Below, piece by piece: positions 17,351-60,640 of a DNA stretch of 64,000 nt. The stretch's first letter is position 1. Each line of letters starts with the position of its first letter. The notes beneath the pieces were generated by a model. The model worked only from the letters and a program-made list of their open reading frames with translations. It searched no databases and had not been told where the DNA came from. Origin of the DNA: Haliotis asinina (lineage: Eukaryota > Mollusca > Gastropoda > Lepetellida > Haliotidae); contig NC_090290.1 of NCBI RefSeq assembly GCF_037392515.1, forward strand, positions 62,001-126,000, written 5' to 3'. The position numbers were made by a program, and so were the translations under genes.

Positions 17351-17353
17351 GGT

Positions 17354-18435
17354 ATGGTAGTAACTCTGTTAGCTGCCAGGTAGATGACGTTTTCCTGACA
17401 GAATCCCGCACCTGGGATGGCGTGTCCTTACCCGAACTATGGTATACCCCCGTACTTCGGTCCTGATGATAGGGGATGTGCGAGAGGTACAATGTCAGTA
17501 CCTGGGGGCCCTTGGAGTTTACAACCACAAGACGATGATCTTCATTTAATGGTTTATTTAAACTAACTGTGTTGCTGATCAACCCACTCCATGGTCACTC
17601 TACAAGACTTCAGCCGCAAAGCTTCCGTCGTAAGCCGAATGCTGGTGCCTTTTAAGATAGATTTTTAGACGATTCCTTGTGACCAAACACCAAGAGTGTG
17701 AGTGCACCAGACTCCCGACTCTGGACTTTGGTACCGCTTAAAACTGGGTCCCTACATCACATCCAACCCTCTTCTTTTTGCCCATGGGTCAACAACCCCT
17801 AACCCTGCATACTTTTTCACTCCCCCCTCCTTATTCCGTACCCCCAATGCCATATTTGTGAGGCTGCGAGGTGGATTCCAAGAAACTCAATGTTTCTACC
17901 TCCTAACCATATATGTCTCGTGGAATACTACGAACTGCTGCCGAGGTCGGTGGACAAGTGGCTCCATCTGGACAGTACCGTCACTTTCCCTTTACCTACT
18001 CTATCAACCATCTAGACTTGCCCCCAATAAGCTCTGACGACTTACTTTCGTGCTTATTTCCTCTGCAGCCGATTACCAACCTCTCTTACCCTGTTTATGT
18101 TTTCTACATCACAGGCCTTTATTTATCATTTCCCATTCTAAATATACTATTAGAACACCTTGATCACTTATTATTTATAATATCATCCCTAGATTTAAAT
18201 ATTATAACCACAATCATAATTCCTCGGCCATGATTATTATAACAAAATCATAATTCCATGCCTCTGATACGATCCCCCTCTGACGGAGAGTGTGTCCCCA
18301 CACACTAAAGAACTGTGATGTCGAGAGCCTTTATCAGCGATCCTGTTAGTTTGGCATTCTGCCTATTCTTGTTGTGACCATGGAGTTAATTGTTCACAAC
18401 CATATAATACAGGTTACAACATTATAAACCAACAA
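17354..18435. repeat. Dispersed repeat X, copy A (left part)
   Basis: About 900 bp from ATGGTAGTAACTCTGTTAGC matches 49500-50412 with only scattered differences plus a ~20-bp indel near 17520/49667. The distal ~210 bp (18225-18435, with CCTCTGACGGAGAGTGTG) recurs at 28928-29150. Two overlapping open frames on the plus strand occur in both copies but resemble nothing I know. X may be part of a larger retroelement, but I cannot name it. Confidence 0.8.
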
Positions 18436-18605
18436 TTCGTACATGATAATATATATATATATAACACGGGAGTATGCCTCTGATACGATTACTTTAATGT
18501 ACAAGGAGAAACATTCAATAATGCATAAAACTTTAAAACATTTTCTTACAGTTGAGAGTAGGTATTTTTCAGAAATAAACATTGAAATATAAACACGAGT
18601 AGATT

Positions 18606-18990
18606 CACAGCAAAAATAACCTGGTTTCCGCAGTGCGGAAACCTGATGGAAAGTGGACTGAAACTTAAGTTTCCACCAAGAATCCAGTGAGTTTCCGTTC
18701 TTTTACACTGAGTTTCCGCAATGACGGAAACTTTCAATTACCCACTTTCTAAGGGTTTCCGCACGGTATCCGTTACCCATGCTCCAACAAGTTTCCGTCG
18801 AGTTTCAGTTAAGTTAGAGATCCATCAGGTTTCCGCAGGGTTTCAGTCACCAAGACTCCATCAGGTTTCCGCAGAGTTTCAGTTATCAGGACTCCATCAG
18901 GTTTCCACAGAGTTTCAGTTACAAACTGACCTACATAGTTTCCGCAGAGTTTCTGTTGCCAGAAAACTTTCCACAGCATTTCATTTACTC
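18606..18990. repeat. Transposon 1 left TIR and subterminal array
   Basis: More than fifteen GTTTCC/GTTTCAG/GGAAAC motifs are packed into ~390 bp. The TIR itself contains a near-perfect palindrome (GGTTTCCGCA, then TGCGGAAACC). From about 18815 the array becomes regular, with a ~37-bp unit CCATCAGGTTTCCGCAGAGT and so on. Such subterminal clusters are transposase-accessory binding sites in plant CACTA elements; a similar role here is inference. Confidence 0.85.
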
Positions 18991-19614
18991 GGGTCACAGG
19001 AGTCATTCAATGTGTGTCATTGCATAAAACATTCTTGTTACTCCTGGTTGGCAAAGACAATATAAGGAGTTTATGTACAATCATCGAGTATACAGAAAGA
19101 AAAACAAAAGATACAATAAGATTCACTGTTTTATTTTCAGACAAATATGGATCAAACATATATCTAATAAATAATAAAAAGATATAGCACTAGATAACAG
19201 ATCAACATTTGTAACTTATGACAAAAATATTTCTAAAAACATGCTATAACAGTTGCATCCCTTGACTCCTCCTGCACCTCCTTACGCTGACACAGAAAAA
19301 CACACCCCAGTCAGTCAATGCTAAACATATAATAACACACACCATGCAATACAATACAACAATGAAATGAAATGCAATAAAGAACTTAGGTTAGTACAAA
19401 AAATGTATTTAAAGTAAATAAAGGTCTCTTTGAAAATAGATAAAAATTAAGATTGAATAAAATTGTATTAATTGAAATACAATCAGAATATCAAAACTAT
19501 TAAAGTTTTACATTGAGAATAATTCAATTTTAATTGATCACAGATAAAATTGCGTTCATGTGATCGATTAGCTATTTACTAGCCCACTTGGGCATCCTTC
19601 AGCGGATATCTCTG

Positions 19615-22255
19615 TCATTCTGGTTGGATGCCGCATCCTGGTCTTAGCTTGTTGGCCTTAGCTTTGGTGGTGGCGTTGAAAATTGTGGTTGAGTCCAGTG
19701 CAGACGTCTTGAGTTTAGATTCCCAAGTAAAGGGGTAAGAGAGCAATAAATTGGCATCTTCTTCATCACTCACAACTAGTGAAGTCATTTCCAAGGTAAG
19801 TATAGTTGAAACCCTTTCCTTTCGTCGATCTGGCCAGTCAATAGTTTTCAGGCTTTTCATGCGCAGTGCAATTTTCTGAAAATTAAACAAAAATCAATCA
19901 ACAGATAAACCATAATGCCAAGATGGATTGCAAGTTATTAAAAAGGAAGTGTCGTGAAAAATCATTTACTTTATTAATCACCCCAACACAAGTTAAGCAG
20001 TTCATCACATTTAATGACATATCCTATTTTCTTATGGACACACAATCTGTTGCTCGGAAGTGACATGTAGTCACTGAAGTGTAGTAACATGTTTATATGT
20101 CATCATTAACTGACTTGATTCTTATGTTATGATTTATGAAATTATGATCTGAATCATGTGTTACATATCTTAAGAATGTAAAAAGCAATAATCCATAAAC
20201 GTTTTAAATGTATATTTCCGGAACTTAGAATCTGTCATCAGACATTGTAATGAGAAGAGTTGCTACATGTTAATATTCGAATATACTTACGGATTTTTTG
20301 GGGTTTTTTTTTGTTTTGTTTTTTTGCTGCTGCTGTTCTGTGTGACACTTTCTTTCCGGTTTCTTGTCTACCGAGATCATCACGCCTGTTCCGCCACACT
20401 CTACAAAGCGCTTCTGAAAATAAATGTTTAAAGTACTATACAGCATGTTTCACACATTTCAGTTCATCTGTTAGGCAAAGGTATTTATATATGCCATGCT
20501 GGCTGGGTTACTGAAGTTAACACCCATAAATCTGTCTTTACACTATTAATTAAATCATTAGCTATTTATAATGACAGGCAGGTGAGTAAAAATTAAAGTG
20601 ATATAGTCACTTGTTTCTTTGACTACTATATTCATAGAGTCCTCGTCATCGGCTTTACTGAAATAAAAACAAATGTCATTTTCCTTGCACTTCATTCAAT
20701 CATGCATCCAACACAATGTCTAATTAAAATTAAAGATCGTCAGTGAAAATTATACAACCAAGTAAACTACAGATTTATCACTTTGAATACATATATTGTT
20801 ATGAAAGTTTACCATTTTTTAGTTAAATGATTTGAAATAACCTCCAAAAAGGCTAACCATCCTTTGTGTTATTTCATGCAAATTCTATATACATCCTGTT
20901 TGCCAAAGTTATGCAACCGGTAAGTGAACAACTGACATAAAGATCATGATAAAAGAAGTTTATTTATATCACATGACATAACCTTGCAGCAATTAAGCAT
21001 TGTAAAATCAAGGGGTCAGTTTGATGGCAATTTCACACAGGTGTAATGTTAAACTGATTTAGTTTACCGGCTATTCAATTCCATTTGCAAATGATACTTT
21101 CATGTTTTTTTTTCATTTTGAGAAAACGTACGTAGGGAAGTGAATAAATGAAATATTCAAAGTGAAATTACCTAGTAACATGAGCACATACCTTCGATAG
21201 ACAAGGGTGATCGTCCAGGAGCAGTCGTGTCAAGATTTTTCTCACAACAGCCTGAAAGATTAAATCAAATACGTTAAATATAACAGGTATATATATAACA
21301 GGTATATATATGATTAAGCTCAACACATATGTATTGAATTACTGACAAATTACATGAAATTTCAAATGTATCCTACGCAAAGCTAACAGTTTCTTATATG
21401 AATTTAGTGTTTGCCTCAAATAGTTCAGAAACACAACTGACCCCTCTGAGCGAATTTGGGGGTAAACAATTTAATTTCACTAATGATCCAGGATTGCATT
21501 TAAGAAACTACACCGAAATGTTGCATTGTAAAAGCCCATCATTTTTATCATTCTTTAAAATATATCTGAATTGGTGAAATATATCTTGCAATACCCAGTA
21601 CACTCATGAGTGAACCACTACATATGGCGGATCTTTGTGATGCAGATCGTAATTCATCCCCACTCCCCAACACCTTTTGTACAAGTGTTAACCGAGTTGC
21701 AACGCAAAAATTTCATTCACTAATGATCCAGGATTAACAGGAGCACCAAAATCAAAAGTCTGCTCCTTTAAACTTAAATAAATACTTGTGGTTAGTACTA
21801 AGATAGTTACTTACAAATACAAGCTTGGTGTATTCTATACCATGTCGATCTATTGAAATGAAATATAAAAAAACTTATTTTTCAGGCCTATTTTACTTAG
21901 ATTTTACGATAACATTTAAAAATAATACGAGCGAAAATATGCATTCGCGGGATAAACTTTAGAATCTATCCGGATTTCAGTCATTGACGCAATAATTCTT
22001 AAAACGTTATTTGACAATAAAAAAAAACCTCGGTCTTACCTGACACATCCGAGGTACTCCGAGTTCCTCGCATCCGTTCTCTGCTTTCTTCTCCAAGTCG
22101 CGAATTCTTTCGTCGAGTGCTTTTTGGGAAAGTGAGGTGGCCGTGGCAAAGTTTACACGACGCAGCCATCTTATGCTTAAAGTTTTGAAAATAATTGCTA
22201 GGAAAACAAATTTGTTCCTACCCGCCAAACAAGATGGCGTCTCGCTAACACTCAC
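19615..22255 (-). CDS. Four-exon, 219-aa gene carried by transposon 1
   Basis: Coding exons read 22255-22040, 21251-21192, 20413-20291 and 19875-19615. All introns are GT-AG (donors GTAAGA, GTATGT, GTAAGT; acceptors TTTCAG/TTTTCAG) and all are phase 0. The joined frame has no stop until TGA at 19615-19617. The N-terminus (MSVSETPSCLAG) leads into a basic stretch and a short coiled coil (ALDERIRDLEKKAENG). The middle is Lys/Gln-rich low complexity. The C-terminal ~85 residues contain RKERVSTILTLEMTS, SDEED and YPFTWES. I do not recognise the family; the tail resembles a motif I have seen in uncharacterised invertebrate proteins near DNA transposons, but this is memory only. The start is the first ATG in a CpG-rich 5' region facing the plus-strand gene. 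Good splice logic argues that it is, or recently was, expressed. Confidence 0.65.
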
Positions 22256-22482
22256 GGGAAATACACAGCTTTGTCATTGTTTTTTTAAAAATAAATCTAA
22301 TGTGACCATTTGACAGTAGATTTCCGCGTTCTACAACAAAAGAAGAGGGTACTCCCTGTTGTGAGTTGTTTTTGTAACAATTAGATAGTCTCGCGTGGAC
22401 GTGATCCTGTCGCCATTCGTTTATTTGTTTACATTGCCGACATCAAAGGGGAGTGTGAAAAGTGGAATTCAGCGGATTGAAT
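22256..22482. promoter_or_regulatory. Putative bidirectional promoter of transposon 1
   Basis: The stretch lies between the minus-strand ATG at 22255 and a plus-strand first-exon donor (GAAT|GTAAGT at 22483). It is locally richer in CpG than the introns around it and lacks an obvious TATA box. The role is inferred from the divergent exon layout. Confidence 0.4.
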
Positions 22483-22644
22483 GTAAGTACTCAAAGTGAC
22501 AACAGTGGGCAGTTATGGTTTTAGCAGTCTTTTCAGTTTTTTAGCGTCACTGATTGTTTTTTCTCAGTGTCAAGCATCAATATGTAGGCCTTGTGATTAT
22601 TAACAGTGATTAATTGTGAAAACGTGTTCACCTTCCTTTAACAG

Positions 22645-24297
22645 GCCCGAGTCCTACTGATTTAGCACTCATGGGAAACTTTATTGTGGCAAATAAGTTA
22701 TTTTCTAAGATCCTGTCAGGAGAAGGTAGTATCCGGATATATTTCTACTGGATGGACCCCCCCCTCCCCACGTACCATGTAAGTAATTTACGCACAGTGC
22801 TCACGGGGGTTAGAAATATTAACATTGTTTGCTCTTCTCAGTTATACACCCAGATCTACTATCCCTATCTACCCTTTACGTTAACTTGATGAATACCTTT
22901 ACTACTATTAATAATATAATTTGGTGATGTGTCAAAATTTCTTTCAAACCTTAATTCATTTGACAATGTGAATGAAGAATAAAGTACAATCCCACTGACC
23001 CTTTGGTTATGATTTGTACATGCATAATTTCTGTAGACTATTCGTGGCACTTTCTGCTGCAGGGACACAGTTCTTTGTGGACATTGCGACAAGTAATTGT
23101 CAAGAAAGACAGCCTAAAATCACGAGAAATAAGTTTCTGAAATATGGTTGGTTTCTACAATATTTGTTTTAACATGGGTACCCAGAGATATTCCGTATAT
23201 ATGTCTTCGTTATATCTATTCATATAATCTGTACTCCAGAAATATTTCAACCAAGTCACATCATACATTTATTAGTTCATCAAATTATCTAGTATCTTAT
23301 GTTCTGTGACAGTTCTGTGTATTCAGTTGTCCCAGTTAATCAGTTTGATTTGATATTTGTTTTATAACCATTAAAACCTTGTCCATCAGTACATGTTGCA
23401 TGTGTTAGCCCTACAATGCATTGACATTATCATCACACCTCAAGTTTCATATTTCTGAAGGAATCATTGTGTCAGTTATTTGATTTACAGATATGGATTG
23501 TGGACCAACAAACTCGGAGAATGACAAGACGCCTTCATTGGTATTTATAATTCACGCTATATTATCTGTTATATGCCCGGTAAGGGAATCTCTATTATAA
23601 CAATATTATTCATATAGCTTTATAATGAAGCAGACACTATGTAAGTGCATACAACAAACCTTTTTGACCTCACTCAAAGTGTAAAGCGTAATATATACAT
23701 ATATTTTAAATTCCAGGAGAAATACGGCTTTTCTGTCCTCACTGCCAGACGTCTGTTTCAAGAAAAACACGTTATCTCCATCTCCGTAACGACAAGATGT
23801 TTGTTTGTTTGTAAAGATTTTTCGGGTGAATGACAAATGTTTCATCAGGTAAGTCATCCAAGAATTTTTAGATTTCACTAAAATCGAGTTTGCACTGTCA
23901 CTTTGCTATCCATGTTTAATATATTTAATGTATGTATCATACATGTAACTGTAATAACTGAAAGTGAGCAAATGGTAATACGTATTTAATATTTGTAATA
24001 CATGTTATCTGCATTATCATATATATTGCTGTGTTTCATTCATTGGAAATGTTAAGATTTTACAAGCTTTTCTTCAGTGAATTGTCTTTCAGTTGAATTG
24101 ATGATTCAAACTGAATGTCCTTTTCCTTTCCAGACACTGACAGTGACCAAGATATTAACAGCACATTCAAGGTTTGCGAGCTATTACCACCACAATGTGA
24201 GAGCCTGATTGATTCGGATTCAGATGTTTCGCCAGATATTAACCAGGACTCGCATACACCAACAAACATCTACAGAAGAACAAAGCACTTTGTGTAG
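22645..24297 (+). pseudogene. Decayed multi-exon gene with CPHC finger, plus strand of transposon 1
   Basis: Exon-like blocks with good splice sites are 22645-22778, 23491-23540, 23717-23848 (CAG|GTAAGT donor) and 24134-24297 (ends KHFV then TAG). An untranslated first exon probably ends at 22482. In one frame the third block reads LFCPHCQTSVSRKTRYLHLR, a Cys2-x11-His finger. The same frame continues as MTNVSS across the splice into DTDSDQDINSTFK, an acidic stretch. A finger followed by Ser/Asp-rich sequence resembles the N-terminus of animal EnSpm transposases as I recall them. That frame has TAA and TGA stops between the finger and the acidic part, near a TTTG microsatellite. The phases of the upstream blocks do not all agree. 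I therefore call it a broken or misread gene. Confidence 0.35.
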
Positions 24298-24599
24298 TGA
24301 CTAGCTCGTCTTCATTCAGTGTGCCAACTTCCTGAGCAATGCTTGTGTGGAGAGAATTCTGTTACTCTTCTCTGAGCGCGCCAGTTTCTTAATACAGCGA
24401 ATTGTGTACTACTGCAACTGCCCTGTTGCATTAAAATGTGACCTTTTCTAAGAAATGAAACAGTTGAATCATAACATTTCCAGAGTTTGTTTTTTGTTCA
24501 GATAAATATGTAATAAATATAACAAGATAATACAACATATTTCAGCTTTCTAAACTAACCGAACTCTCATTGTCATCTTCCTTGTACAAAAACCTAGCG

Positions 24600-24878
24600 G
24601 GAACCTACATTACCCAAGATCCACAAGGTTTCCGCAAGACCAGAAACTAACTCACTCCAGCTATAAAGGTTTCAGTAAACTGAAACTAAATGGAAACTTC
24701 CAACTACAGTTTCAGTTGACGGAAACATGACGGAAACTAAGACTTGTTAGTTTCAGTTGTGGAAACTATGCGGAAACTCTCATTGCGCGTTTCCTGAAAC
24801 TGAAACCCAGCGGAAACCTACATTACCCAGTATCCATCAGGTTTCCGCAAGAACGGAAACCGAGTTATTTTTGCTGTG
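24600..24878. repeat. Transposon 1 right subterminal array and TIR
   Basis: A dense cluster of GTTTCCGC, GGAAAC and GAAACTGAAAC motifs, largely inverted relative to the left array. It ends in the TIR GTTATTTTTGCTGTG. The inner 50 bp mirror the left end. Confidence 0.85.
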
Positions 24879-25189
24879 ATTGGAAGTGAAACAACCATCT
24901 TTTTTCATACATACCATCACTTCCTGATATGATACTGAAATCTTTTCAGTCCAAATGTTTTAAATTCATATGGAGCAATAAACTGGATAGAGTCAAAAGA
25001 GTAGCTCCAAGCATGCCACCAAAGCATGGAGGACTAAATGTTTCTATTATAAAGGAAATAATTTGTGCTAAAGAAATATCATGGATGAAACGACTATGAG
25101 AAGAAAATGCTAAATGGAGAATACTGTAAGTGTATTATATAACTTGCAGGTTTTATTTTTGCACTGTTCATGCAACATATTTTACTGAT

Positions 25190-25440
25190 TTTATAACATA
25201 CTATGAAATTCTGTTACACACATTGTGAAGAGAATTGGACTTAGAACACAACCTTGCTGGACACCACTAACTGATTTGAGGTAATCACCAATCGACGAAT
25301 AACTGAGACGAACAGAAGCCAGAATCTTGGAATACATATTTCTTAAAGCTGAAAATAATCGACCCCGAATAACTTGTGTAAAAAGCGAATACCACAATAA
25401 TGTTCTATTGACTGAATCAAAGGCCTTTAGAAAATGAACA
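25190..25440 (-). mobile_element. LINE reverse transcriptase fragment (copy A)
   Basis: The minus strand encodes an RT palm segment: LKAFDSVNRTLLW, LRNMYSKILASVRLSYSS, then GVQQGCVLSPILFTM. This order and spacing are typical of non-LTR retrotransposon RT (RTE/CR1-like style). Only about 80 residues remain; the YxDD box is not present. The same fragment is at 50870-51120. Confidence 0.8.
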
Positions 25441-26347
25441 AATAAGCAATAAAAACGAGCATCTGGATCTTATCATAAGACTTATATCGTGGCATGGTAC
25501 AAAGTCAATAATGTGTTTAATGTCACCATTTATCATCATTTTACTGGCAGGTCATTAGTAAAACAATTAAGCTTTTGTTGCCAAATTCCACTGTAGACAA
25601 CTTGAATGTGTTGTCTAAGAGGGTAAGAGGGCTGACCATTAGACAACTAACACAGTGTTGCATCTGGACTGTGTAATTGCGTAATTTACTCAGTTTCAGT
25701 TAAACAAAACACTATTTTAGTTTTTGATGCGTCACACATCAAGCAAAATTAATCTTATGTAGGCAGATTTGTACTAATGAAGTGTAAACTTTATATTTAT
25801 TATGACCAGTACATGTGGTTAAATTTAGTATCGAATATTTGAAATGAAAGACAAACAAATTTAGGAAAAAACCATTGCTTGAAATAAATACAACCTAATA
25901 CATATCAAGAAGTAATAGTTGTTTTGTTTGGCTTTCAGATATCATACTGTGTGACCCAACCAATGACTTTGATCAGAACTAATGGCGTTCTCAAGCATGG
26001 TGGTCATGGGTCAGCATAGTTAAAAATATTACAGAAAGTTTCAATAAGTGGAACTTTGAATGTTTTCTCAATAACAGTGATGTGTGAGCCTTAGAAACGA
26101 TGCATTACTGAATCTTTCACAAAACATTATGTAAGTTGAAATGCTGATATGAATGCCAGCGTGTGCCGATCGAAAATGGAAGTGTGAAAGATTGCGAGGT
26201 AGTAAATGCTCCAAGTCTGTTTTCGTTAAGATTCTTACAACTCGCTATATACCCATATTTGAAAAGGTGATGAGTTGCATAACTCACATTTGTTAATTCT
26301 TTGATGCAATACTGCTCATATATATGTGTTATTCTACATGCAATCAT

Positions 26348-26569
26348 CACAGCTCATTGGAAAACACATCCTGTCTGCTATAATCACAGCTCTTTGGACA
26401 ACACATCCTCTCTGCTATAATCACAGCTCATTGGACAACACATCCTCTCTGCTATAATCACAGCTCATTGGACAACACATCCTCTCTGCTATAATCACAG
26501 CTCATTTGATAACACATCCTATCTGCTATAATCACAGGTCATTAGGCAACACATCCTGTCTGTTACAGA
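26348..26569. repeat. 37-bp minisatellite, six copies (copy A)
   Basis: The unit CACAGCTCATTGGACAACAC continues ATCCTCTCTGCTATAAT. The variant order in the six units differs from the matching array at 52028-52249. Here the second unit is the CTTTGG type; there it is the TTTGATA type, followed by CTTTGG. Confidence 0.9.
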
Positions 26570-27009
26570 CCATTGTTACAGACCACTGATAATTGTCACC
26601 ATCAGGGTCTCCTCACTTTGCCACCACCTATTGCTTTCAATTTTGGATGCACTCAAGCATGTTGATTAAGGGAACAATAGAACACATTGGGGTCGTCTAA
26701 AAGTTTTATTCCCTCACTGCCACCTGTTTTGCCATGAGTTTGTCAATCTTGGTAAATCATGTAAATCAGGCAATGAAAAAGTACAGAAATACATTTCATA
26801 AATTCATTTGCATTCATTTTCATAACAAACAATTCACAGACATATTCAACATGATATAGTTCTTTGTTTAGCACTAATAGTCATGACAAGAAGTACATTT
26901 CAAAAATTTATTTGCTTTCATTTAACAAATAATCTAACACTAATACAATTAACAGACATATGTATTGTACATATCACAGAGCACTTTCATTGTTTTGAAC
27001 TAACAGTCA

Positions 27010-27990
27010 GGAGTCAGTTTAACACATTTTCCTCACAGGCCAATGACATGGGACACAGAGTCTGCATATTCAACTGGAGTTTTCGCACCAGATACAAGAG
27101 AGACGTTGGTCTAGTTCTAGGTACTCTCTGGATGATGCTGATGAATTTGTACAAGTTGGGATGTACGAGACCAGTTTTGTTCATCTTAGCATGCCAGCCC
27201 TCCTCATGGTTCGTTGTTCTGAAACCGTCGTTGTCGAAGTGGTTCCATGTAGGAAGGCCTGGCTTCTCCACCCAGTTCTCAGTCACACAGTCTGTGAATC
27301 TCTTCACATCAGGATTGTCAAGATCAACGTCTTCAAGTGCATTCTGTCACACATTGTTGATGTCACACAGTTGTAGCAGAGGCATGGCACAGGCACGACT
27401 GATGAGATGGTTTACAAATGGATCAGTGGAGACACTTGCCTGAAGACCAAATCGCTAGGCACTTCTCCATATGGCCTGTCTATAGTGAAACAAACAGCCT
27501 TTCAGTTGACACTGGAACACATCAAGAGCAGCTTGTTGTGCAGCAATCTCAAAGTCAGTAACAATAAAAGTGGGTTGCAATTGAAATTCATGTTAGAGTT
27601 CTTTTGTTTTACAACATCAAACAATGTCCTATAGGTGGATTGGTTCTTATCAGGCAACAAAGCAAATACAAGGGGAAGCATTTTCCCGTTAACAAGGACA
27701 AGGAAAGTATACAGTTGATGAAACAATTTTGGACAAAAGTTGAAAGTGCCATCAGCAAATATGGTGTCAGCTGATGTGAGGTATTGCAGGTTGATCTGGT
27801 AGAGAAGATCAGCATGTTGTCTTCGGAGTGAAGCAGGAATTGGTTGCCACTGCAGGTCTTGGCGTAGAGTTCAGGAAGATCGATGTCAGAGCATTGGCGT
27901 GGTAGAGGTGGTAGTTCTTTCGCTCTTGAATGGTAGAGACTGGACTGGGTGCTGTAGAAGGTCGGAGCAGATAATGTTATGTCAACCTCA
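27010..27990 (-). mobile_element. Mutator-like (MULE) transposase relic, copy A
   Basis: The minus strand reads an N-terminal part (LPPLPRQ, YAKTCSGNQFLLH), the MULE catalytic start ADGTFNFCPKLFHQLYTFLV near 27775-27715, and LPDKNQSTYRTLFDVV. Further on comes NHEEGWHAKMN near 27200, the conserved C-terminal histidine region seen in invertebrate MULE-derived proteins. The frame is broken several times, including a shift after the DKNQSTY segment. No terminal inverted repeats were identified. It is clearly inactive. Copy B (52706-53730) keeps a longer open stretch of the C-terminal half. Confidence 0.75.
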
Positions 27991-28139
27991 GCGGACCACA
28001 AACCTCGAATGAGAAAATTTAGATGTTAAATCTGCATATCGTTTCTGATTCACATGCACAAAATATGTATGCTCATATTATTTATATATTTTACGTTCTA
28101 TTAGGTAAGAAATCAAGCATGTTTACATACATATAGTGT

Positions 28140-28925
28140 TGTATGAGTAGGTAGCCTGTATGGCGTTTGTTTAGTGAGCTGTGTATAATTGGCCGGGCGT
28201 GGACGTCAGAGGAGACAGCCGGGCATCGGTTTGTGGTACCATTATGGGATTAAGAGGTTGTTTAGAGGAGAGGCAATATGGAGGGTTTGTTATGGTGTGG
28301 TACTGTTAGATTTTGTGGGCTAGATTGGAATTTGTGATGAAAGTAGCTATGGCCTGTAAGATAGATAGTTTTGGTATTTAGGGAATTTAGTAGAAGCTGA
28401 ATGTTATTTTGCTATCTGGCTGGTAGAGAGTTTTGTAACTGAATGATGTTTGAGTGTTTTAAGTGGCATTGAGTGAATATGTGTGTTATTGTTTCTTGGG
28501 TTTTGCAATGTGATCAAAGTCCATCTGGGTGTCTGTTTTGTGTGAAAAGATTGTGATTGAAGTTTGTGTTGCCTGTGATGAGTCGTGTGATGAAAATGTC
28601 CACGTGGGATGAGTCTGAAAATATGGGTGTTTTGGTGATGGGCTATGTGATGATGCTTTTAACCAGGATGGACTTGCTTGTGTTTACGTTGTGTTTGAAG
28701 TTAAGTGTACATATGTTGGTTTTTATGAGCTGTTTAATTTCTGATTTAGATGTGCGGAGATGGATGGCTGGGGATGGGTGAGTAGTTGCTAACTTTGCTG
28801 CTGTATCTTCTGGGTTGTTTACTATGTTGTGTGTGTGCAGGGATCCATAAGAGAGTGATGTTTTTGTTTAGTTGTTTCAGTGAGTGTATTTGGAGGGTAA
28901 TGTTGTGTATAAGGTCTGGTTTTTC
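28140..28925 (-). mobile_element. LINE ORF2 C-terminal part, copy A
   Basis: Minus-strand translation gives the downstream end of a non-LTR ORF2 as degraded RNase H/C-terminal sequence, with a PRWTL-like and TIRG-like Cys/His tail. The matching copy B extends upstream into a recognisable RNase H (54530-54912). Here that part is cut off at 28925. Confidence 0.55.
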
Positions 28926-28927
28926 GG

Positions 28928-30060
28928 CCCTGATTCGCTATTAGTATAACAAATCATAATTCCATGCCTCTGATACATTCCCCCCTCTGACGAAGAGTGT
29001 GACCCCACACACTAAAAAACTGTGATGTCGAGACCCAAGTCTTTGTCAGCGATCCTGCTAGTTTGGCATTCTGCCTATTTTTGTTGTGACCATGGAGTCA
29101 ATTGCTCGCAACCATATAATACAGGTTACAACATTATGAACCAACAATCGCGGCTTTGTCGGGGGTTAAATAATTTTAATTTTGTGGTCAGTCGGTCAAT
29201 GGCATACAGAGCCATCCACCCCTTGACCTTTGAGACGAGACCTTCGGGTAGGTCAGGTGATGCTGACATCTTCCCTAAATACAAATAGATAGCTGACTCT
29301 TCAGTGACAGTTTTAATCCTTTGTGTGCGGAAGTAATGTATTAACGTAATGACGTCATACTGGTCAAGAAAGTTGCTGGGAGGGAACAACACCGGATGCT
29401 TTTTCAGGTTGGGCGAAATGTCGCCTAATACATTAATGACAGAGCCCTCATATGGGACTTCACAATCCGGACACTGTTTGGTATCCAACCAACATGGTAG
29501 TCCTGAGAGTGGCAGACCCCTGTCCAGGTAGGTCTCCAGCCCGTTGTTTCAGGGTACAACCAGGCGTACGCATGTTTGCTCCCCTGGTTCCATGTCTCCC
29601 TGAGATACCTGGCGGAATTCACACCCTGCGATTTTTAAAAGTGTGGCCACACACTCTGTATGTTGAATACGACGACACCATTTACAGAAGGTTACAGGCG
29701 GGAATTTCTTACGGTCATCACGGATTGGAAATATTCCCTGGGTGTAAAGGGGACAGTACCCCAGAGTCTCCTCTGCGAACACGAATCCCGTCCTAGTAGG
29801 TTTGAAGCGGGATGCCGCTTGATTTATATAATTCGTTACCTCCTCCGATTGTGTATGGTAGAGGGCTGACCAAACCCTAGACCTCGGAATAGGTAGGTGT
29901 AAGTCTGTGGGTACAGAGCTCTCGAGAACATGACCGACCACGATGACAGCGGGTACAAGACCGTTTATTACCTGATCGGATAACAACAGGAAACTTACAC
30001 AAGGGAGATAACTCGGGCTGGCTATCATTTGATTATCGCTAAAGCCCATGACGCCTATAT
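28928..30060 (-). mobile_element. Repeat X right part with two unassigned ORFs
   Basis: 28928-29150 repeats 18225-18435. On the minus strand two long frames (about 30064-29549 and 29488-29126) encode cysteine-containing proteins. One has the motifs FCKWCRRIQHTEC and YCPLYTQG; the other has CPDCEVPYEG and ALYAIDRLTTKL. I do not recognise either; they could be gag-like or accessory proteins of the element that repeat X belongs to. Treated as a broken fossil. Confidence 0.4.
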
Positions 30061-32480
30061 ACAATCATAACATTCCTCCCCCTAGCTTATTCTAATATGG
30101 ACAATAGAATATTCCTATCAGATATGATCCTTTATAGTAATTACTTTACTTCAGAAATTAATCTTACAATTATCAATCAGCATATTAACACTCTTGAACA
30201 ATAATAATTCAAGTCTCTGGGGTGCTTGTCTTTGACGAACAGGATAACGTCTCGGCTTGACTGCAACAACATCATCTCTGGCAGTCTCTAGACTAGAATT
30301 CGACATAGCTGGTTGAACTGGTTCACATGTCAAGTTACTATCATGTGGAGCACTCGTGACGTCTCGGGATTCTGTAACATCTGACGTCTCATGTTATGGC
30401 AATGAGCAATCTGACACAACAGGCATCTAAACATGTGGCTGAAACATACAACTTTCATTATCAATAAGTTGATCAATATGTTTTCTCTTAACAGCACCAT
30501 TTGGACACAGAATCTTGTATGAAACTGGTCCAGTTTGTTCAAACACTGTACCTGACTCCCACTTCTCCCCCTCTCTATAAGACCTGAAGAGGACATGTTG
30601 ACCTGATGAAAAACTTCTAACGGTTCCTCTCAACATTGACGCTGACTGTTGTTTCTGAACTGTTCTCTGAATATCTGGTTTGAGCAAATCCAGCCTTGTC
30701 TTAAGTCGTCTACCATGCATCAATATTGATGGAGTTTCACCCGTGGTCGTGTGAGGTGTGTTTCGGTATGCCAATAGAAAATTTGCTAGCTTGTGCTTGA
30801 CAGTGACATTTTTCTTCTCAGCTTTCAAGCTGTTCTTGAGACTCTGTACAAATCTTTCAGCTAAGCCATTAGTGGATGGATTGTATGGTGCGGAAAGTGT
30901 ATGCTTGATTCCATTGGATTTGGTGAATTTCTGAAACTCTTCTGATGTAAATTGTGGTCCATGGTTGCTCACAATCTGATCTGGGATGCCATTTCTGCTG
31001 AAAATGTCTAGCAAAACCTCAATTGTCCTCTCAGACGTTGTTGACTTCATAATAGCTACTTCAGGCCATTTGGAATGTGCATCTACAACAACAAAGAACA
31101 TATGACCCATGAATGGTCCTGCAAAATCAATATGCAGTCCCTGCCATGCTGCTGTTGGGAACACCCAGGGATGGAGTTGAGCTCACTGTGGATTCTTACT
31201 GATTTCACCACATCCCTGACATGTTTTACATAGCCTGCCTATATCTGCATCTATCCCTGGCCACCAAATGTAGCTTCGTGCTAATGCCTTCATATGACTC
31301 ATTCCGGAGTGTCCTTCATGAAGTTCATCTAAGCACTTCTCTCGGTACTGTGAAGGTACGACTACTCTCATACCCCACATCAGACAACCTTGGAATACTG
31401 ACAGCTCTCTTCTACGACTGAAGTAAGGTTTCAGATCTTCACCAGGGCATACCTCAGTCCATCCTTTCAGCGTTATGTCCAACACCTTTGAAAGAACTGG
31501 ATCACGTCTGCTCCTATTATGAATCTGCTCAGTTGTGACTGGCAATGTATCAATCTGATTTACATACAAGACATCAGTCGAGTCGGCATCCGAGTTATCA
31601 TCAGGCAAAGGTAATCTTGACAGTCCATCTGCGTTACCATGTAGCGTTGTGTTGCGGTAGCCACTCTAGGTTAACCCTAACCCTAACCCTAACCCTGAGT
31701 TATCATTCGGCAAAGGTAATCTTGACAGTCCATCTGCGTTACCATGTAGCCTTGTGTTGCGGTAGCCACTCTAGGTTAACCCTAACCCTAAGCCTAACCC
31801 TGAGTTATCATCCGGCAAGGGTAGTCTTGACAGTCCATCTGCGTTACCATGTAGCCTTGTGTTGCAGTAGCCACTCTATGTCGTAGTCATACCCAGCAAG
31901 GAATACTGCGTATCTCTGAAGTCAGGGTTAGGGTCAGGGTTAGGGTTATCTCTGAAGTCTGGGTTAGGGTTAGGGTTATCTCTGAAGTCAGGGTTAGGGT
32001 TAGGGTTATCTCTGAAGTCTGGGTTAGGGTTAGGGTTATCTCTGAAGTCAGGGTTAGGGTTATCTCTGAAGTCTGGGTTAGGGTTAGGGTTATCTCTGAA
32101 GTCAGGGTTAGGGTTAGGGTTATCTCTGAAGTCAGGGTTAGGGTTATCTCTGAAGTCTGGGTTAGGGTTAGGGTTATCTCTGAAGTTAGGGTTAGGGTTA
32201 TCTCTGAAGTCTGGGTTAGGTTAGGGTTATCTCTGAAGTCAGGGTCAGGGTTAGGGTTATCTCTGAAGTCTTGGTTAGGGTTAGGGTTATCTCTGAAGTC
32301 TGGGTTAGGGTTAGGGTTATCTCTGAAGTCTGGCAGCTGTCATGGCTGGAATGGCTTTCTGTGGTGAAAAGATTGAAATGAGAGGTTGATGATCTGTGAC
32401 TAGTGTGAAATGTCTACCATAAAGATACGTATGGAATTTCTTGACTGCCCAGATCTTGCTTTAAGCTGGTGTCTTCCTTT
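30061..32480 (-). mobile_element. Ty3/gypsy pol 3' half, fossil, with telomere-like inserts
   Basis: On the minus strand an RNase H part near 32470-32340 ([14 protein letters not shown]) is followed by its continuation near 31910-31600. The integrase HHCC finger lies at 31350-31200 (HEGHSGMSHMKAL, CKTCQGCGE). The integrase core runs to about 30430 (VVVDAHSKWPEV, NGIPDQIVSNHG, YNPSTNGLAERF) and ends in a C-terminal domain (GPVSYKIL, KRKHIDQL). It belongs to the K02A2.6-like group. It is broken, but the integrase is a long open frame, so it is moderately young. Telomere-type arrays split the RNase H region. Confidence 0.85.
31669..32328. repeat. Interstitial telomere-like repeats in two opposite orientations
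   Basis: Plus-strand CCCTAA tracts at 31669-31697 and 31773-31802 alternate with ~77-bp copies of pol-derived sequence. From 31924 the plus strand switches to TTAGGG. About sixteen units of (TTAGGG)2-3 alternate with TATCTCTGAAGTC, a 13-base piece of the interrupted pol sequence. TTAGGG is the animal telomere repeat. Confidence 0.95.
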
Positions 32481-32486
32481 AAGCTA

Positions 32487-33780
32487 CGAGGGTTGGCTGA
32501 AAAGTTCTAAGCCTCACTGTGAAAAAAAGTTACAAAGTCCACGTTTGTAATTTATTTTTCTACATAGTCCCCTTCCAAGTTCACACACTTTTGCCAGCGA
32601 TGCTGCAAGGCCCGAATCCCGGTCAGGAAGAAATCTTCTTCAGCTACCCTAAAAAAATCAGTCACAGCGGAAATGACGTCATCATTACTTGCAAAATGGC
32701 GACCAGTGAGTTCCTTTTTCATTTTGGGGAACAGGTGGAAGTCAGAAGGAGCCAAATCAGGTGAATAAGGAGGATGGTCAATGAGTTCAAAGCCACAATC
32801 GCGGATTGTTGACATGGCCACCACCGATTTGTGAACAGGCGCATTGTCTTGGTGGAAGAGGACACCTTTAGCGATCATCCCTCATCGTTTAGCTTTGATT
32901 GTTTCTCGCAACTGGTTCAGTAGATTAGCATAGTATCTGCCGTTGATAGTTTGACCTCTCTCAAGATAATCAATGAGCAGAATACCCCTGGAATCCCAAA
33001 AGACTGATGCCATCACCTTTCCAGCTGAAGGAACAGACTTGGCTTTCTTCGGAGCTGGTGAATCAGGATGCTTCCACTGTTTTGACTGTAGTTTTGTTTC
33101 TGGTTGAAAGTGATGTATCCAGGTCTCATCCATGGTTACAAATCGTGCCACAAAATCATCGGGATCTGCTTTAAAACGACGCAAATTGTCAAGGGACGTC
33201 TGGAACCTGACACGTTTCTGTTCTGCTGTCAAGAGCTTTGGCACCCATCTTGCAGAAACTTTAGTCATTCCTAATTCGTTGGTGATAATATGCTCCACCC
33301 TCTCATGAGAGATGCCCACTACACTAGCAATATGTCGAGTAGTCAATCGTCGATCATCCATCAACATATCGAGCACTCGCGTGATGTTTTCTGGAGTGGT
33401 TGCTGTTGAAGGCCTTCCTGAGCGTGGGTCATCATCAAGGCTTTGTCTGCCACGCTTAAATTCTGCAGCCCACTTCTTTACTGTGGAAAATGAAGGAGCA
33501 TCATCCCCTAGTGTGGAGAGCATGTCAGCATGTATCTGTGTTGGGGACATCCCTTTCTTTTGCAAGTACTTGATGACTGCCCTGTACTCAGTTTTGTCCA
33601 TTTCTGATGATTTGAGAGGGTAGGTTTACCAAAAGAGCTGTAGTTGAGATAAAACTATTAGTACGTTTGTAGTTCTTGTGTCTATGATTCACTAAATGAT
33701 TGTCCTCATTGGTGGCAAATACCTGTCTCTACCTGGTGGGGAAAAACCGCTCAGGCTGAGAACTTTTCAGCCAACCCTCG
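32487..33780 (-). mobile_element. mariner transposon, 1,294 bp, one nonsense codon
   Basis: Terminal inverted repeats CGAGGGTTGGCTGAAAAGTT are flanked by TA at 32485-32486 and 33781-33782. The transposase runs from 33601 to 32552 (~350 codons). It has an N-terminal HTH pair (MSPTQIHADM, then RHIASVVGISHERVEHI), WVPKLLTAEQK, and the DD34D triad within VTMDETWIHHF, FHQDNAPVHKS and YSPDLAPSDFHLFP. All three catalytic Asp are kept. One in-frame TGA at 32879-32881, after TIKAKR, separates the second and third catalytic Asp from the N-terminal part. The length and TIRs are otherwise those of a complete mariner, so it is recent. A mariner-free copy of the target lies at 45675-45828. Confidence 0.95.
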
Positions 33781-49440: not shown

Positions 49441-49499
49441 TGGTATTTTGATACGGCTACTGAGGTGCAGTTACTGTGTAGACAGAAGTAGGAGGAGGG

Positions 49500-50412: not shown

Positions 50413-50869
50413 AAATCATAAAATCAAAATCAAATCTGATACGATTACTTTAAAGTAGAAAGAGAAACATTCAATAATGCATAAAACTTTAAAACATTTT
50501 CTTACAGTTGAGAGTAGGTATTTTTCAGAAATAAACATTGAAATAAAAAGACGAGTAGATTGGAAGTGAAACAACCATCTTTTTTCATACATACCATCAC
50601 CTCCTGATATGATACTGAAATCTTTTCAGTCCAAATGTTTTAAATTCATATGGAGCAATAAACTGGATAGAATCAAAAGAGAAGCTCCAAGCATGCGACC
50701 AAAGCATGGAGGACTAAATGTTTCTATTATAAAGGAAATAATTTGTGCTAAAGAAATATCATGGATGAAACGACTATGAGAAGAAAATGCTAAATGGAGA
50801 ATACTGTAAGTGTATTATATAACTTGCAGGTTTTATTTTTGCACTGTTCATGCAAAATATTTTACTGAT

Positions 50870-55789: not shown

Positions 55790-56177
55790 ATCTTACTGTG
55801 TATGGCATTGTTTTTAATGCCAAACCATATCAAATGCTTTACTGAAATCTATAAAAATGTCCATTGTGTATTGTTTTTGTGCTTGTGCTACCCTAATGTC
55901 ATATTCCAAATGCAAAATATGGTCTAAAGTTTGTCGATTTGGAGTGAAGCCGCTCTGGTCTTAGTTAATTAAGTTGTGGTTTTAGATGTGGTGTTTTGCC
56001 TATTGTTGATTATTGTTTCCATTGTTTTGCATAGGTGGGATGTTAGAGAAATGGGCCTAAATGAATCTGGGGAGTTAGCTGGTCTCCCTGGTATCAGGAT
56101 TGTCACCACCGTAGCTGTTTCCATGACATTGGTAAAATTCTTTGGGTCCAGATTTTGTAAAGAGAGTGAGGATGAGG
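55790..56177 (-). mobile_element. LINE reverse transcriptase, left part of the split ORF
   Basis: On the minus strand the frame resumes after transposon 2 with LILTLFTKSGPKEF. One frame change further on it shows TATVVTILIPGRPA, SFRPISLTSHLCK and FIDFSKAFDMVWH, the RT fingers and palm A motifs. The order is that of a typical LINE RT. The upstream part is at 60499-60640. Confidence 0.85.
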
Positions 56178-56470
56178 CACTGCAAAAATGACTTGGTTTC
56201 CAGAAACCTGGAAACCATCCGTAATGTGGGTAATTGCGGAATCCAGTTGGTTTCCATTCTCTGAAACTCACTAACTGAGTTTCCAACTAGATTCCATTTT
56301 GGAAATGTGATTTTGGCATTTCTGTAAATGGAAACCAAAATGAAACTAAGTTCGGGGGTTTCTTGTTGGTTTCCATACCTGGAATTTGCAACTCTCAGAT
56401 CTCACTAAATGGAAACCAACATAAAAGTAGAAAATGTAGTTTCATGTTGGTTTCCATTGCGCTGTTTTGA
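56178..56470. repeat. Transposon 2 left TIR and subterminal array
   Basis: Clusters of GGTTTCC, GGAAACC and TGAAACT/GAGTTTCC in both orientations. The first 40 bp can fold on GGTTTCCAG/CTGGAAACC. Confidence 0.8.
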
Positions 56471-56809
56471 ACTAACTAACATAAAATGTGTAATTGTTTA
56501 CCATCCTGACATCCAGTTGGTGTCCATTCAGTATCCATCTGAATGTGCCTGGGGAAGGAATAGTAGATTCGGTTCTTTGCTTAGAACAAGACAACAAAAG
56601 TAAATTGTTGACGCATCATTCTGTGGATATCACAATATTAAATGTGGCTTCAAACTGATGATACAAGAACAAACTATACACTTTTTTCCTTCACATTCTT
56701 GTTTATTCGTAATGTAATGAAGCATCATATTCCAACTACCATGCACACAAACTTCACAATAACCGCACTAAACATGAAAATGGTGCTAGGCACACTTAGT
56801 TCCGTTTCT

Positions 56810-57529
56810 CTAGATAGGGTTTTGGTTGTCTGCTTTGTCAAATTGAGGATCAGACGCTTTCTTTATCTGAAAAGAAATAATAAAACAGTGATATCTATAT
56901 ACAAGAATAAAAGGTGAGTTGACTCTGCATAGAAACATTGCTCAAACTTTTATTATATATTAATTATAACTTATTGGATCATTGAGTTGTGTACGGGCTT
57001 GTATTCCTTTCAGTAAATATATTGTATAAAAATAAATAAAATTAAAGCCACTTTAGCAATAGCAATAGTTCAGATATATATTAATAATTAAAAGGTAAAT
57101 GATGCAATATATATTAAAAAAACAGGCTATAGACTGCCAACTCCTGGGAATGTGAAAGAGTGTAAGCATTTAGGAAGATTAGTATAAGTCATTAAAACAA
57201 TTGTCAGTTCGGTACTTACATGATGACATTTATGCAGAATATACGTGAATTATACAATAAACTGAGGCAGTGCGTAAAGTTTAGCGTTAAAAGCATTTAT
57301 AATTGGCATACTTTGACACTGAGTTTAAATACTTGACAACTAATCAGTGTCAGGTCATTAGTGTGTTGGGGTTCGTGTGTCGGCTTCACTGGGGCAGTCC
57401 CCACTTAACAGGCTCCTATTATCAAAATTAGCTAGCTGTAAAAACAATAGAACTTACCTGAGTCAGGTGTTGACAGACAAACCCGGAAGTAATGAACCGG
57501 TAATCCATGGGCACGCGAACTCGTGACAT
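56810..57529 (-). CDS. Two-exon, 42-aa gene, left arm of transposon 2
   Basis: Exon 1 is 57529-57458 (MSRVRVPMDYRFITSGF, then VCQHLTQ) with a CAG|GTAAGT donor. Exon 2 is 56866-56810 (IKKASDPQFDKADNQNPI, then TAG) with a TCTTTTCAG acceptor. The phase is 0. The product is too short for domain recognition. Position and orientation match the 219-aa gene of transposon 1, but I see no residue similarity. Other exons could exist in the 590-bp intron. Confidence 0.4.
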
Positions 57530-57831
57530 TTTATGAAAGCAACAGTTTTATGTACTGAAGTGGTCGTTTTCAGTCTTTGTCTTAAAATCACATCCAAATT
57601 GGGTCAGTGAAGGATTTCGGGCCTGCCAATCGAAAAAGGATCAGGTATTTCTTATTACCCACAATGCCCCTACGCACAGTTGCCGCCATTTTGTCACTTG
57701 ATCCCAAGTTGTTTTGAGACGACTATTTTGAAAGCAGTTCTCACCCGGTATGTCCAGTAACGACGACAAGGAAGTCAACACAGTGCAGTATTCCTACGTT
57801 TGCCCGTGTTATCTGATTCAAGAGACTGGCA
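57530..57831. promoter_or_regulatory. Putative bidirectional promoter of transposon 2
   Basis: The intergenic stretch between divergent start codons, with a locally higher CpG content and GCCGCCATTTTG near 57681. A short upstream ORF (MSSNDDDKEVNTVQYSY...) starts at 57750 and overlaps the plus-strand start, so it could damp translation. The role is inferred. Confidence 0.4.
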
Positions 57832-59765
57832 ATGACATTTACAATAGAAGCTTATGAGATTCGGATACGTGAAAAATTGAGAAGAGCAGCAGTCGTCGAT
57901 CGCAGCGGGAGAAAAGGAACATTCCACGATCTGGTCAGGTACGGTGTTATTTTCTTGAAATAAGCAATAGCACATGTTATTCGTAATGTTTAACGTAAGT
58001 AAGTAACTATTACAATACATATGAAATTTTAGACTTGACGGACCTCGGTAAACACATGCGTGTCGAATTCTTAGCAAGAGAGATGTATGGCTTCCTTCAC
58101 TCAGCACTCGGTTAATTCAAGAACTCAATATTACTATGATTTGGATCAGCTCACACACAATTAAAATGGTTCAATGTGTTAATGAATTATCTTTGCAAGA
58201 AAAAAATAAATCACAAACATTTCTGGTATATTATTGCTAATGTGCTTGTTACGACTCAAAATAACTTCAAACGTATTTATAAACACGAATATTTATTTGA
58301 GAAATCCTTTTCATATTGCTTTTGATATTTGCACGTTTGAAAACAATGTAGTCGGGAATAGTGTGTCATTTTGCATTTTTAGGTTAGGCATTCTCTGACC
58401 AGATTTGGTGCATTGTTTGAGGGAAATTTCAAAATTGAAATTTCACAATGTTTTCAAACTAATATTGAAGAGTTTTATATTATTGATTTATGATTTAATT
58501 TAGATTTGCCATCTGATGTAAGTAGTATTATGCTTATCATATCAAGATTTAACGAACTCTGAATGAAGAAATGTGGATTGTGTTAGTCCCACAGAAAAGG
58601 TTATGAAGAGTATATAAAGAACATATGGGTATACAATGATGGATTGCCAACCCAAAAGAGTATATGAATTTGCTGACCTGGATTCTTTTCATGTAGCATA
58701 TTCTACACTTTGCAAATTGATATTTATTCTTTTTATTCGACACTTTATTGTTTTCAAGAGTGCAATATGACAAGTTCCTGACTTTTTTTTAATCGATGCA
58801 TTTCTACGTTTCCAGCATAAAGGAGGGCAGTGTTGGAAAAACTGAAGACGGCAGTCTGGACCAACTCATTTTGACATACAAAAGGTATGTATAACCTGAA
58901 CCGTCCAGTACACAATGCACATACAACATAACCAAATAATGTAAATCCTGGGAATCAGTAAAAATGCATGGCGCATGTCACTATTCTTGTAACCTCCAAC
59001 TGGAAACATGTTTCACTTATAGTTATGCATCATGCACATGTCTCCTTTCAGAAGCTTTTTGATGGGTTTGGATGAACAAGATGGATCACTTATGAAGGTG
59101 TGGGGAAAACAGAGGCCCAAGGCTTGCATGCAAAGAACGGCAAAAAGTTCAGAGTAAGTAAACGTATTCTAGTCATTTGACATCTTGCAGAGATTAAAAA
59201 TTTTAAGGAAACCTTTAAAATATCAAGTTAATTTGGATTCTTTCTATGTACATTCAAGGAATTTCAAAACGAACACTGTTTAAAATGTGCAATTTATCCT
59301 TTGAAAAATACAGCTTAAAAAGTTTTAAATATTATGCAGCACATTATGCTGCAGCGTGTGCTTGTGACCCCATATTCATAGCTTGTCTGCCTGAATGACT
59401 CCACATTATTGGTAAAGAAAACATGTCTTTTCACAATAACGGATAAATCGTAGTTCTATACTCATAATGTGCATTGTAAGTAACATTCAGAAAATAAATA
59501 ATGGCTTTCAAAGGCGAATTTCTTCATGTCTCTGCACTCTATCATATATCAATAAGATGTTCTGCGATTGAAACTTTTGATGTCAAATGCTCAGTTTATA
59601 CTTTTTGATCTCTTTGCTTATCGGACATGGGGGTTCAGTGTATTTCACCTCAAGCAATGTTTGACAGTTTTCTTTTCTCTAGCCATGGATATCGTAGACG
59701 AATGCTTGTTTGTACTGATAGTTTGTTTTCTAAATTTCAGAAGCTGGAAAGCAGGAAGGCTGTGA
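57832..59765 (+). CDS. Four-exon, 100-aa gene, right arm of transposon 2
   Basis: Exons are 57832-57938, 58816-58884, 59052-59153 and 59741-59765. All introns are GT-AG with TTTCAG/TTCCAG acceptors, and all are phase 2. The product starts MTFTIEAYEIRIREKLRRAA, contains SGRKGTFHDLV, EDGSLDQLILTYKRSF and GLDEQDGSLMKVWGKQRPK, and ends SWKAGRL. It is basic and probably helical at the N-terminus. I recognise no family. The repeated DGSL- motifs flanking exon junctions are notable. AATAAA at 59885-59890 would serve as polyadenylation signal. An alternative last-exon frame stays open to TAG near 59837 but does not fit the splice phase. Confidence 0.5.
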
Positions 59766-60044
59766 AACGATTGACTGGCCGGAGAAGAAGCACACAGTTT
59801 TTCCTCTCTTGGGGAAAGAGCTATCATTTTTCAAACTAGGAATATTCCGAATATTATTTGTTTACAAACATATTGTTGGATATAAATAAACTTTTAATGA
59901 ATTTGTGTTTTATTCTGTTGTTTGTCATCCTGAAGCCTTTTACCATTTTGCAATTGTATAAAATACCTGATTTGCTACATGTGAGATATGAAACAACATC
60001 TTTTCCGGAGGACCGGGTAAAGGGCCCACACGAGCAAGTTTCAG

Positions 60045-60498
60045 TTCATGGAAACTAGGTATTAAACTAGGTTGGAAACTACAACACGGAAACCAGGTTG
60101 AAACCTGCAATAAACTCCTACATGGAAACCAGGTTGAAACCTGCAATAAACTCATACATGGAAACCAGGTTGAAACCTACAGTAAACTCATACATGGAAA
60201 CCAGGTTGAAACCTGCAATAAACTCATACATGGAAACCAGGTTGAAACCTACAATAAACTCATACATGGAAACCAGGTTGAAACCTACAATAAACTCGTA
60301 CATGGAAACCAACTGGATCCCGCTTGGAGGAGTGGGTAATGAAACGAATTGGAAACCATCCTGAAATGGTGCAGTTTCAGTTGCATGGAAACCACAATGA
60401 AACTATAGGAAACTCCCTGGAAACCAACTGGAAATGTTGGTTTCCATGACGTTTCTTCTCGGTTTCAGTGTTCCGGAAACCAGCTTATTTTTGCTGTG
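60045..60498. repeat. Transposon 2 right subterminal array with 36-bp tandem repeat
   Basis: From 60085 to about 60310 a 36-bp unit (CATGGAAACCAGGTTGAAAC plus CTGCAATAAACTCATA) is repeated 6.4 times, with unit starts exactly 36 bp apart. Single GGAAACC/GGTTTCC motifs follow up to the TIR. The frame through it (KPAINSYMETRL repeats) is not a protein. Confidence 0.9.
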
Positions 60499-60640
60499 AG
60501 GTTGAGCATGTTAGAGACTAGTTTATTTATTATTGTGTGTGCTATGTTATCTGGACCCGGGGCTGAGGTTGTTTTTCTATGTGTGAGTGTATTGCTTTGT
60601 TTATGGGTAAGTGAGAGTGGGTGGTTGGGGAGTGAAGGTT
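60499..60640 (-). mobile_element. LINE reverse transcriptase, right part of the split ORF
   Basis: The minus strand reads LTHRKTTSAPGPDNIAHTI and NKLVSNMLNL, the conserved start of LINE RT, directly up to the AGG of transposon 2. On its other side it stops at the AACGTT-rich array. Confidence 0.85.

Follow-up and report, generated by a model that had tools for sequence, protein, structure and literature searches.

Element 1: boundaries and ends

The locus raises the question of what kind of transposon interrupts one copy of a duplicated block in the genome of the abalone Haliotis asinina, and whether the genes inside it belong to the transposon or to the host. The analysis was performed on a stretch of 64,000 bp (the window; positions 62,001–126,000 of NC_090290.1, assembly GCF_037392515.1), for which an initial annotation had described a CACTA-like, non-autonomous transposon at 18603–24881. 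With a probability of roughly 0.93, this element (element 1) is a copy of an abundant non-autonomous EnSpm/CACTA family of H. asinina, derived from a longer element whose transposase gene lost about 2.4 kb. This reading rests on direct observation of the paired ends, of 3-bp duplications at numerous sites, of an unoccupied site, of subterminal repeats and of a relative that is collinear and bears a transposase. The features that delimit the element are as follows.

18606..24878 (no strand): element 1, 6273 bp, bounded by a perfect 15-bp inverted repeat CACAGCAAAAATAAC; the left boundary is also supported by further genomic copies
18603..18605 (no strand): target-site duplication ATT of element 1, left copy
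24879..24881 (no strand): target-site duplication ATT of element 1, right copy
18624..18991 (no strand): left subterminal repeats of element 1, GTTTCCGC motif
24540..24860 (no strand): right subterminal repeats of element 1, GTTTCC/GGAAAC/CTGAAAC

Element 1 starts with CACAGCAAAAATAAC and finishes with GTTATTTTTGCTGTG, the exact reverse complement of the start. The boundaries proposed initially were accurate to the base, except that 18603–24881 counts both ATT duplications and the element proper runs from 18606 to 24878. Chance inverted repeats as the source of these ends were ruled out by simulation: in 100 first-order Markov sequences of 64 kb, perfect 15-bp CACNG pairs spaced 80–15,000 bp apart occurred at 0.01 per sequence, and none of the 100 contained such a pair with a matching 3-bp flank. 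In the window itself, CACNG pairs with identical 3-bp flanks numbered 5 against 1.63 expected when up to 4 mismatches were allowed, and 2 against 0.34 expected with up to 3 mismatches. These two are element 1, without any mismatch in its end pair, and a second element (element 2, 56178–60498) with 3. Inside the left subterminal zone of element 1, a 25-nucleotide (nt) repeat is present seven times at 18755–18991 with a spacing of 29–38 nt. The hexamers GTTTCC/GGAAAC occur 23 times in element 1 and 26 times in element 2, and 25 times in the remaining 53,406 bp of the window.

An empty site in the duplicated block

50559..50561 (no strand): empty site with a single ATT, in duplicated block B

The window contains a direct block duplication, 17351–28919 (A) and 49498–54681 (B), the pieces of which are about 91–96% identical and lie 26–32 kb apart. 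Element 1 is present in block A only. The junction in block B reads ...GACGAGTAG-ATT-GGAAGTG..., with GTAGATTGGAAG at 50555–50566 and one ATT only, and the flanks of the site are collinear between A and B over 127 bp (96.1% identity) and 3881 bp (95.9%). The inverted ends, the ATT duplication and the unoccupied site recorded in the initial annotation were thus borne out by the sequence and by flanks at 96% identity. Insertion of element 1 into block A would postdate the duplication. Precise excision from block B is possible yet improbable, and less likely than insertion into A after the duplication; with just two block copies known here the direction is not polarised by a third, but exactly one ATT is kept in B between flanks collinear at 96%, and insertion with 3-bp duplications is demonstrated for the family.

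Block A also holds one of two copies (18233–18436 and 28940–29148, 90% identical) of a sequence of about 205 bp. It looks like a short dispersed repeat, since the first copy fills a stretch of about 210 bp of block A that has no counterpart in block B.

Copies of element 1 in the genome

Searching the H. asinina genome with the left end of element 1 gave 482 candidates, of which 40 were scored; copy counts are lower bounds. All 40 matched, element 1 itself included. Of the 39 other matches, 37 begin 1–6 bases before the first base of element 1 (query base 21–26, the element starting at 27) and are 98–100% identical; the remaining two are 93–94% identical and align from further out, and the sequence flanking one of them (L010) differs from block A. 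From these 39, the 20 with the highest scores were fetched. The right end was present in 17 of these, and both ends with identical 3-bp flanks were found in 16 (TTT in 4, AAT in 3, ATA in 3, ATT in 2, GTT in 2, ATG in 1 and CAT in 1). The 16 complete copies are 5107–6200 bp long, with a mean identity of 98.7–99.2% to one another and 96.2–96.8% to element 1. Judged from these identities, they would represent a young burst, with element 1 as an older cousin. The family is abundant in H. asinina, and the notion of a single-copy oddity was ruled out by the recurring paired ends; element 2 likewise has a recurrent family in the genome (see below).

At two of the fetched places, L012 (from 143) and L028 (from 141), the left end matches element 1 for 118 and 511 bp, respectively, at 99% identity and then gives way to unrelated sequence. 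These appear to be solo or truncated ends.

A transposase-bearing relative

22645..24427 (+): 5' part of the transposase gene, with zinc-finger-like exons, an acidic exon and the next stretch; match to the C13 gene
24427..24472 (no strand): point where about 2.4 kb of the C13 relative, including Transposase_21, is missing

Matches to the Pfam family PF02992 (Transposase_21), a domain regarded as a CACTA hallmark (PMC1636069), were sought in the H. asinina genome and in 14 control genomes. The former gave 18 candidates, all of which were scored, with 6 matches, all over the cut-off; the latter gave none. One of the six lies in an 8953-bp relative at C13:324276-333228, which has the ends of element 1 and GTA/GTA flanks; its Transposase_21 domain was detected with an expectation value (E) of 2.7e-14. 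This C13 relative is collinear with element 1 at 71–82% identity over most of its length, and has about 2.4 kb extra between bases 5822 and 5867 of element 1, which holds the Transposase_21 domain. Because of this collinearity, element 1 is read as internally deleted and non-autonomous. A 366-residue frame of the C13 relative matches the rightward exons of element 1 (VSPDINQDS..., NACVERILLLFS...; tblastn E 4e-16), and the first zinc-finger-like exon, which contains stops in element 1, is open in the relative. From the collinearity, the frame match and the open first exon, the rightward gene of element 1 is the 5' part (stump) of a CACTA transposase gene. The label zinc-finger-like is a reading of a C-x2-C...H pattern and not a database match.

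No transposase domain was found by Pfam in the 118 frames of at least 40 amino acids that overlap elements 1 and 2. When 5 gene products were added, 22 families appeared at E ≤ 0.1, each in 1 of the 123 members and none a transposase; the lowest E was 0.00013, and that of RVT_1 0.054. Transposase_21 was likewise absent from the 15 window frames of at least 200 amino acids, for which Pfam gave integrase, mariner transposase and others. A padded protein search (4958 candidates, covering database proteins of about 469–1491 amino acids) yielded none at E ≤ 10 and did not show the C13 gene. The initial statement that no transposase is visible therefore holds for the domain in the 118 frames, but not for the gene, of which a 5' piece is present. 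That the element is CACTA-like and non-autonomous was supported by the recurring end pairs and by Transposase_21 in a relative with the same ends. The check proposed at the outset, for further paired ends with 3-bp duplications and for an EnSpm transposase in some copies, turned out positively: pairs were present in 16 of 20 copies of element 1 and 3 of 5 of element 2, and the transposase was found in the C13 relative.

Assignment to EnSpm/CACTA and proposed mechanism

The 5'-CAC...GTG-3' terminal inverted repeats are present at 4 of 4 ends in the window and in the C13 relative, and such termini together with 3-bp target-site duplications have been called consistent with EnSpm (PMC12730594). 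Duplications of 3 bp were found in the window (ATT, AGG), at the C13 relative (GTA) and in the genome copies. Subterminal zones of direct and inverted repeats are also present; such repeats, a transposase and a second open reading frame (ORF) are described for EnSpm/CACTA (PMC8978399, PMC4158355). Transposase_21 (tnp2) in a relative with the same ends was found for element 1, via C13.

Several observations weigh against this assignment and the proposed origin. The end pentamers are CACAG (3 of 4 window ends) and CACTG (1 of 4), and not the strict CACTA/TAGTG. A matching pair was absent from four of the 20 copies fetched (L012, L017, L028 and L019): at L019 the pair spans 1021 bp with unequal flanks, TTT/AGG, and in the stretches examined for L012, L017 (+3 kb) and L028 (+7 kb) the right end was absent, also with 3 mismatches allowed. 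The C13 relative, with its putative transposase gene a candidate enzyme source, is just 71–82% identical to element 1, and no copy combining ends of about 99% identity with a transposase was among the 20 fetched. Finally, only one of the 6 Transposase_21 places was traced to such an element, and four of them match neither element 1 nor element 2 at the DNA level.

Among the Transposase_21 places, L034 (C5) matches element 1 in part. L033 and L035–L037 (C1, C4) have no DNA match to element 1 or 2, and are probably other EnSpm lineages within the H. asinina genome.

In the mechanism that we favor, longer copies would make a Transposase_21 (tnp2)-type enzyme, which, judging from the ends and the relative, would bind the CACWGCAAAAAT ends of the shorter copies, probably helped by the GTTTCC/GAAAC subterminal sites. 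The short copies would be cut out and joined to 3-bp staggered cuts, that is, moved by cut and paste with 3-bp duplications. It is very improbable that the enzyme moving elements 1 and 2 comes from another group of the CMC clade (Chapaev, Mirage or similar). CA..TG ends and duplications of 2–5 bp are, according to PMC12730594, common to most CMCT lineages, but the relative with the same ends has Transposase_21 (tnp2) and element 1 retains a piece of that gene.

The second gene of element 1

19615..22169 (-): second gene of the family; exons 22040-22169, 21815-21849 (optional), 21192-21251, 20291-20413 and 19615-19875

When read from MCQ with the optional exon skipped, the second gene yields the annotated H. 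asinina protein P0001 (150 amino acids) letter for letter; a further protein, P0002, is 89% identical to P0001 and lies on a different contig. The first exon is readable in two frames, and the annotation agrees with one only. Four exon pieces have counterparts in the C13 relative at 52–69% amino acid identity, two of which contain stops. Because these counterparts lie in a transposase-bearing element, the leftward multi-exon gene is a second gene belonging to the family itself (ORF2-like); it is largely decayed and was not captured. Capture of a host gene by element 1 was rejected since both of its genes have counterparts in the C13 relative; the captured host coding DNA that characterises Pack-CACTA elements is thus not found in element 1.

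Across 17 copies, every splice site that is present retains its dinucleotide. With the optional exon skipped, the frame is broken in 14 of the 17 and reaches the last exon in three: element 1, L025 and the deletion-bearing L024. With so few intact frames, the idea that the second gene now serves the element is weakened. Its product gave no Pfam family above the cut-off, and the structure prediction for P0001 was too poor to use (mean predicted local distance difference test score, pLDDT, 43). The intron-bearing genes of the initial annotation are real in so far as their splice junctions are matched by annotated H. asinina proteins, while the frames are broken in most copies. The initial view of the element as a special carrier of multi-exon genes was not supported: both genes belong to the element itself; one is truncated, and in 14 of 17 copies the frame of the other is broken.

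Element 2

56178..60498 (no strand): element 2, 4321 bp, ends CACTGCAAAAATGAC...CTTATTTTTGCTGTG; right boundary supported by 39 further loci, both ends by 3 of 5 copies
56175..56177 (no strand): target-site duplication AGG of element 2, left copy
60499..60501 (no strand): target-site duplication AGG of element 2, right copy
60040..60363 (no strand): subterminal array of element 2, 36-nt units with GGAAACC
57832..59765 (+): four-exon gene of element 2, 100 amino acids; exons 57832-57938, 58816-58884, 59052-59153 and 59741-59765
56810..57529 (-): possible small two-exon gene of element 2, 42 amino acids; weak, by eye

With 3 mismatches the end pair of element 2 alone is not significant (0.34 expected); element 2 is significant through the likeness of its ends to those of element 1 and through its genome copies. 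Its ends differ from those of element 1 by 1 and 2 mismatches, and an alignment of 39 bp at 84.6% identity (E 1.5e-5) relates its right end to the left end of element 1. All four ends are alike over about 25 bp, leading into GGTTTCC. The genome search with the right end gave 301 candidates, of which 40 were scored, so that counts are again lower bounds; all 40 matched, itself included, and the 39 others end 0–9 bases past the last base. Five copies were examined: three are complete and have the same 3 bp on both sides (GAG, 4623 bp; ACA, 4339 bp; ACC, 4419 bp), and for L042 and L044 the left end was not found in the stretches examined. Copies L040 and L045 of this family start with CACTA at the left. 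Element 2 would accordingly be a member of a second large family, with ends related to those of element 1.

The sequences beside element 2, at 55969–56174 and 60502–60842, probably belong to a decayed reverse-transcriptase frame of a long interspersed nuclear element on the minus strand, split by the insertion. When the flanks are joined with one AGG the frame is open across the joint; a weak RVT_1 match beside it (E 0.023) is below the cut-off.

The product of the four-exon gene is identical at 94 of 100 residues to the annotated H. asinina protein P0003, which falls in a cluster of 12 sequences. No counterpart of this gene was detected in element 1 or the C13 relative (best P0003 match in C13, E 0.97), and the 366-residue C13 transposase frame had no tblastn match to element 2. 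Comparison of the genes of elements 1 and 2 was not significant, with E 0.052 in one comparison and a lowest E of 0.009 over many frame pairs. For the stretches between the genes, 170 and 137 of 200 shuffles scored as well as the real sequences; the corresponding numbers were 14, 12, 1 and 0 of 200 in four comparisons of the subterminal zones, and 34 of 200 for the 36-nt units. The structure prediction for the P0003 family was too poor to use (mean pLDDT 48). A scan of viral contigs with P0003 gave one match of 15 residues, judged to be chance.

It is tentatively possible that element 2, and not element 1, is a Pack-CACTA-like carrier whose four-exon gene is captured host DNA or of other origin. 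Neither element 1 nor the transposase-bearing element at C13 has a detectable counterpart of the gene, and Pack-CACTAs are known in plants (PMC8903248), but a donor gene was not found, the three relatives being uncharacterised H. asinina proteins in a search that admits about 78–246 amino acids only. The wider proposal, that the element-2 family is an animal Pack-CACTA-like family of many copies with CACTA-type ends and a cargo annotated as ordinary abalone genes, is rather unlikely.

Relation to known systems

Element 1 and its relatives share with EnSpm/CACTA elements (CMC superfamily), as far as these are described in the sources cited above, the CAC...GTG termini, 3-bp duplications, subterminal direct and inverted repeats, a second gene and non-autonomous copies, and in addition Transposase_21 in the longer relative of element 1. 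They differ in their CACAG/CACTG ends instead of CACTA, and in a second-gene product without a Pfam family above the cut-off. Animal members of CACTA have been reported from Schistosoma (PMC1636069) and Daphnia (PMC2884549). SmTRC1 and the animal TRC elements, in the account of PMC1636069, likewise belong to the CACTA superfamily and occur in animals; they carry Transposase_21, give spliced transcripts and include truncated copies; however, SmTRC1 has ends starting with CCC and 2-bp duplications, whereas the abalone elements have CACWG ends and 3-bp duplications. The plant Pack-CACTAs, as portrayed in PMC8903248, are also non-autonomous and gene-bearing with CACTA-type ends, but the genes of element 1 are the family's own and not captured; element 2 is a possible case of capture.

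In molluscs, CMC elements were reported across all genomes of a survey (PMC10294476) and EnSpm was tabulated for the hard clam (PMC8905726), so that the initial claim of a family not described in molluscs does not stand as worded. These reports concern the same superfamily and phylum, but in their available portions they offer survey counts and consensus elements, and no large non-autonomous gene-bearing family is described there. No description of the element 1 family was among the matches listed in the literature, Repbase and most subscription journals lying outside the search, and the family as such may be unnamed. Element 1 is not a new system; it exemplifies, cleanly and with well-defined limits, a kind of transposon already known.

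Other features in the window

The window holds several further frames and repeats. A mariner-type transposase frame lies at 32882–33625 (Transposase_1, E 1.7e-23). The frame at 43754–45103 has an amino-acid permease match (E 1.2e-15), and its end runs, by eye, into retrotransposon-like sequence; it adjoins a tandem array at 44632–45103 with a period of 80 bp and copies 96–99% identical. A 279-residue frame at 48631–49470 has a weak Baculo_F match (E 0.086), below the cut-off. Frames at 1459–4524, 30427–31182 and 35597–38211 resemble, by eye, parts of long terminal repeat retrotransposons, and integrase (rve) matches were found in 3 of the 15 window frames scanned.

Significance

Overall, two abundant, large non-autonomous CACTA families are delimited to the base in a gastropod, and for one of them the origin is shown, namely loss of the catalytic part of the transposase gene. 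It follows for the annotation of the abalone genome that some proteins listed as 'uncharacterized' are decayed transposon genes. Element 2 provides a testable case of possible gene capture.

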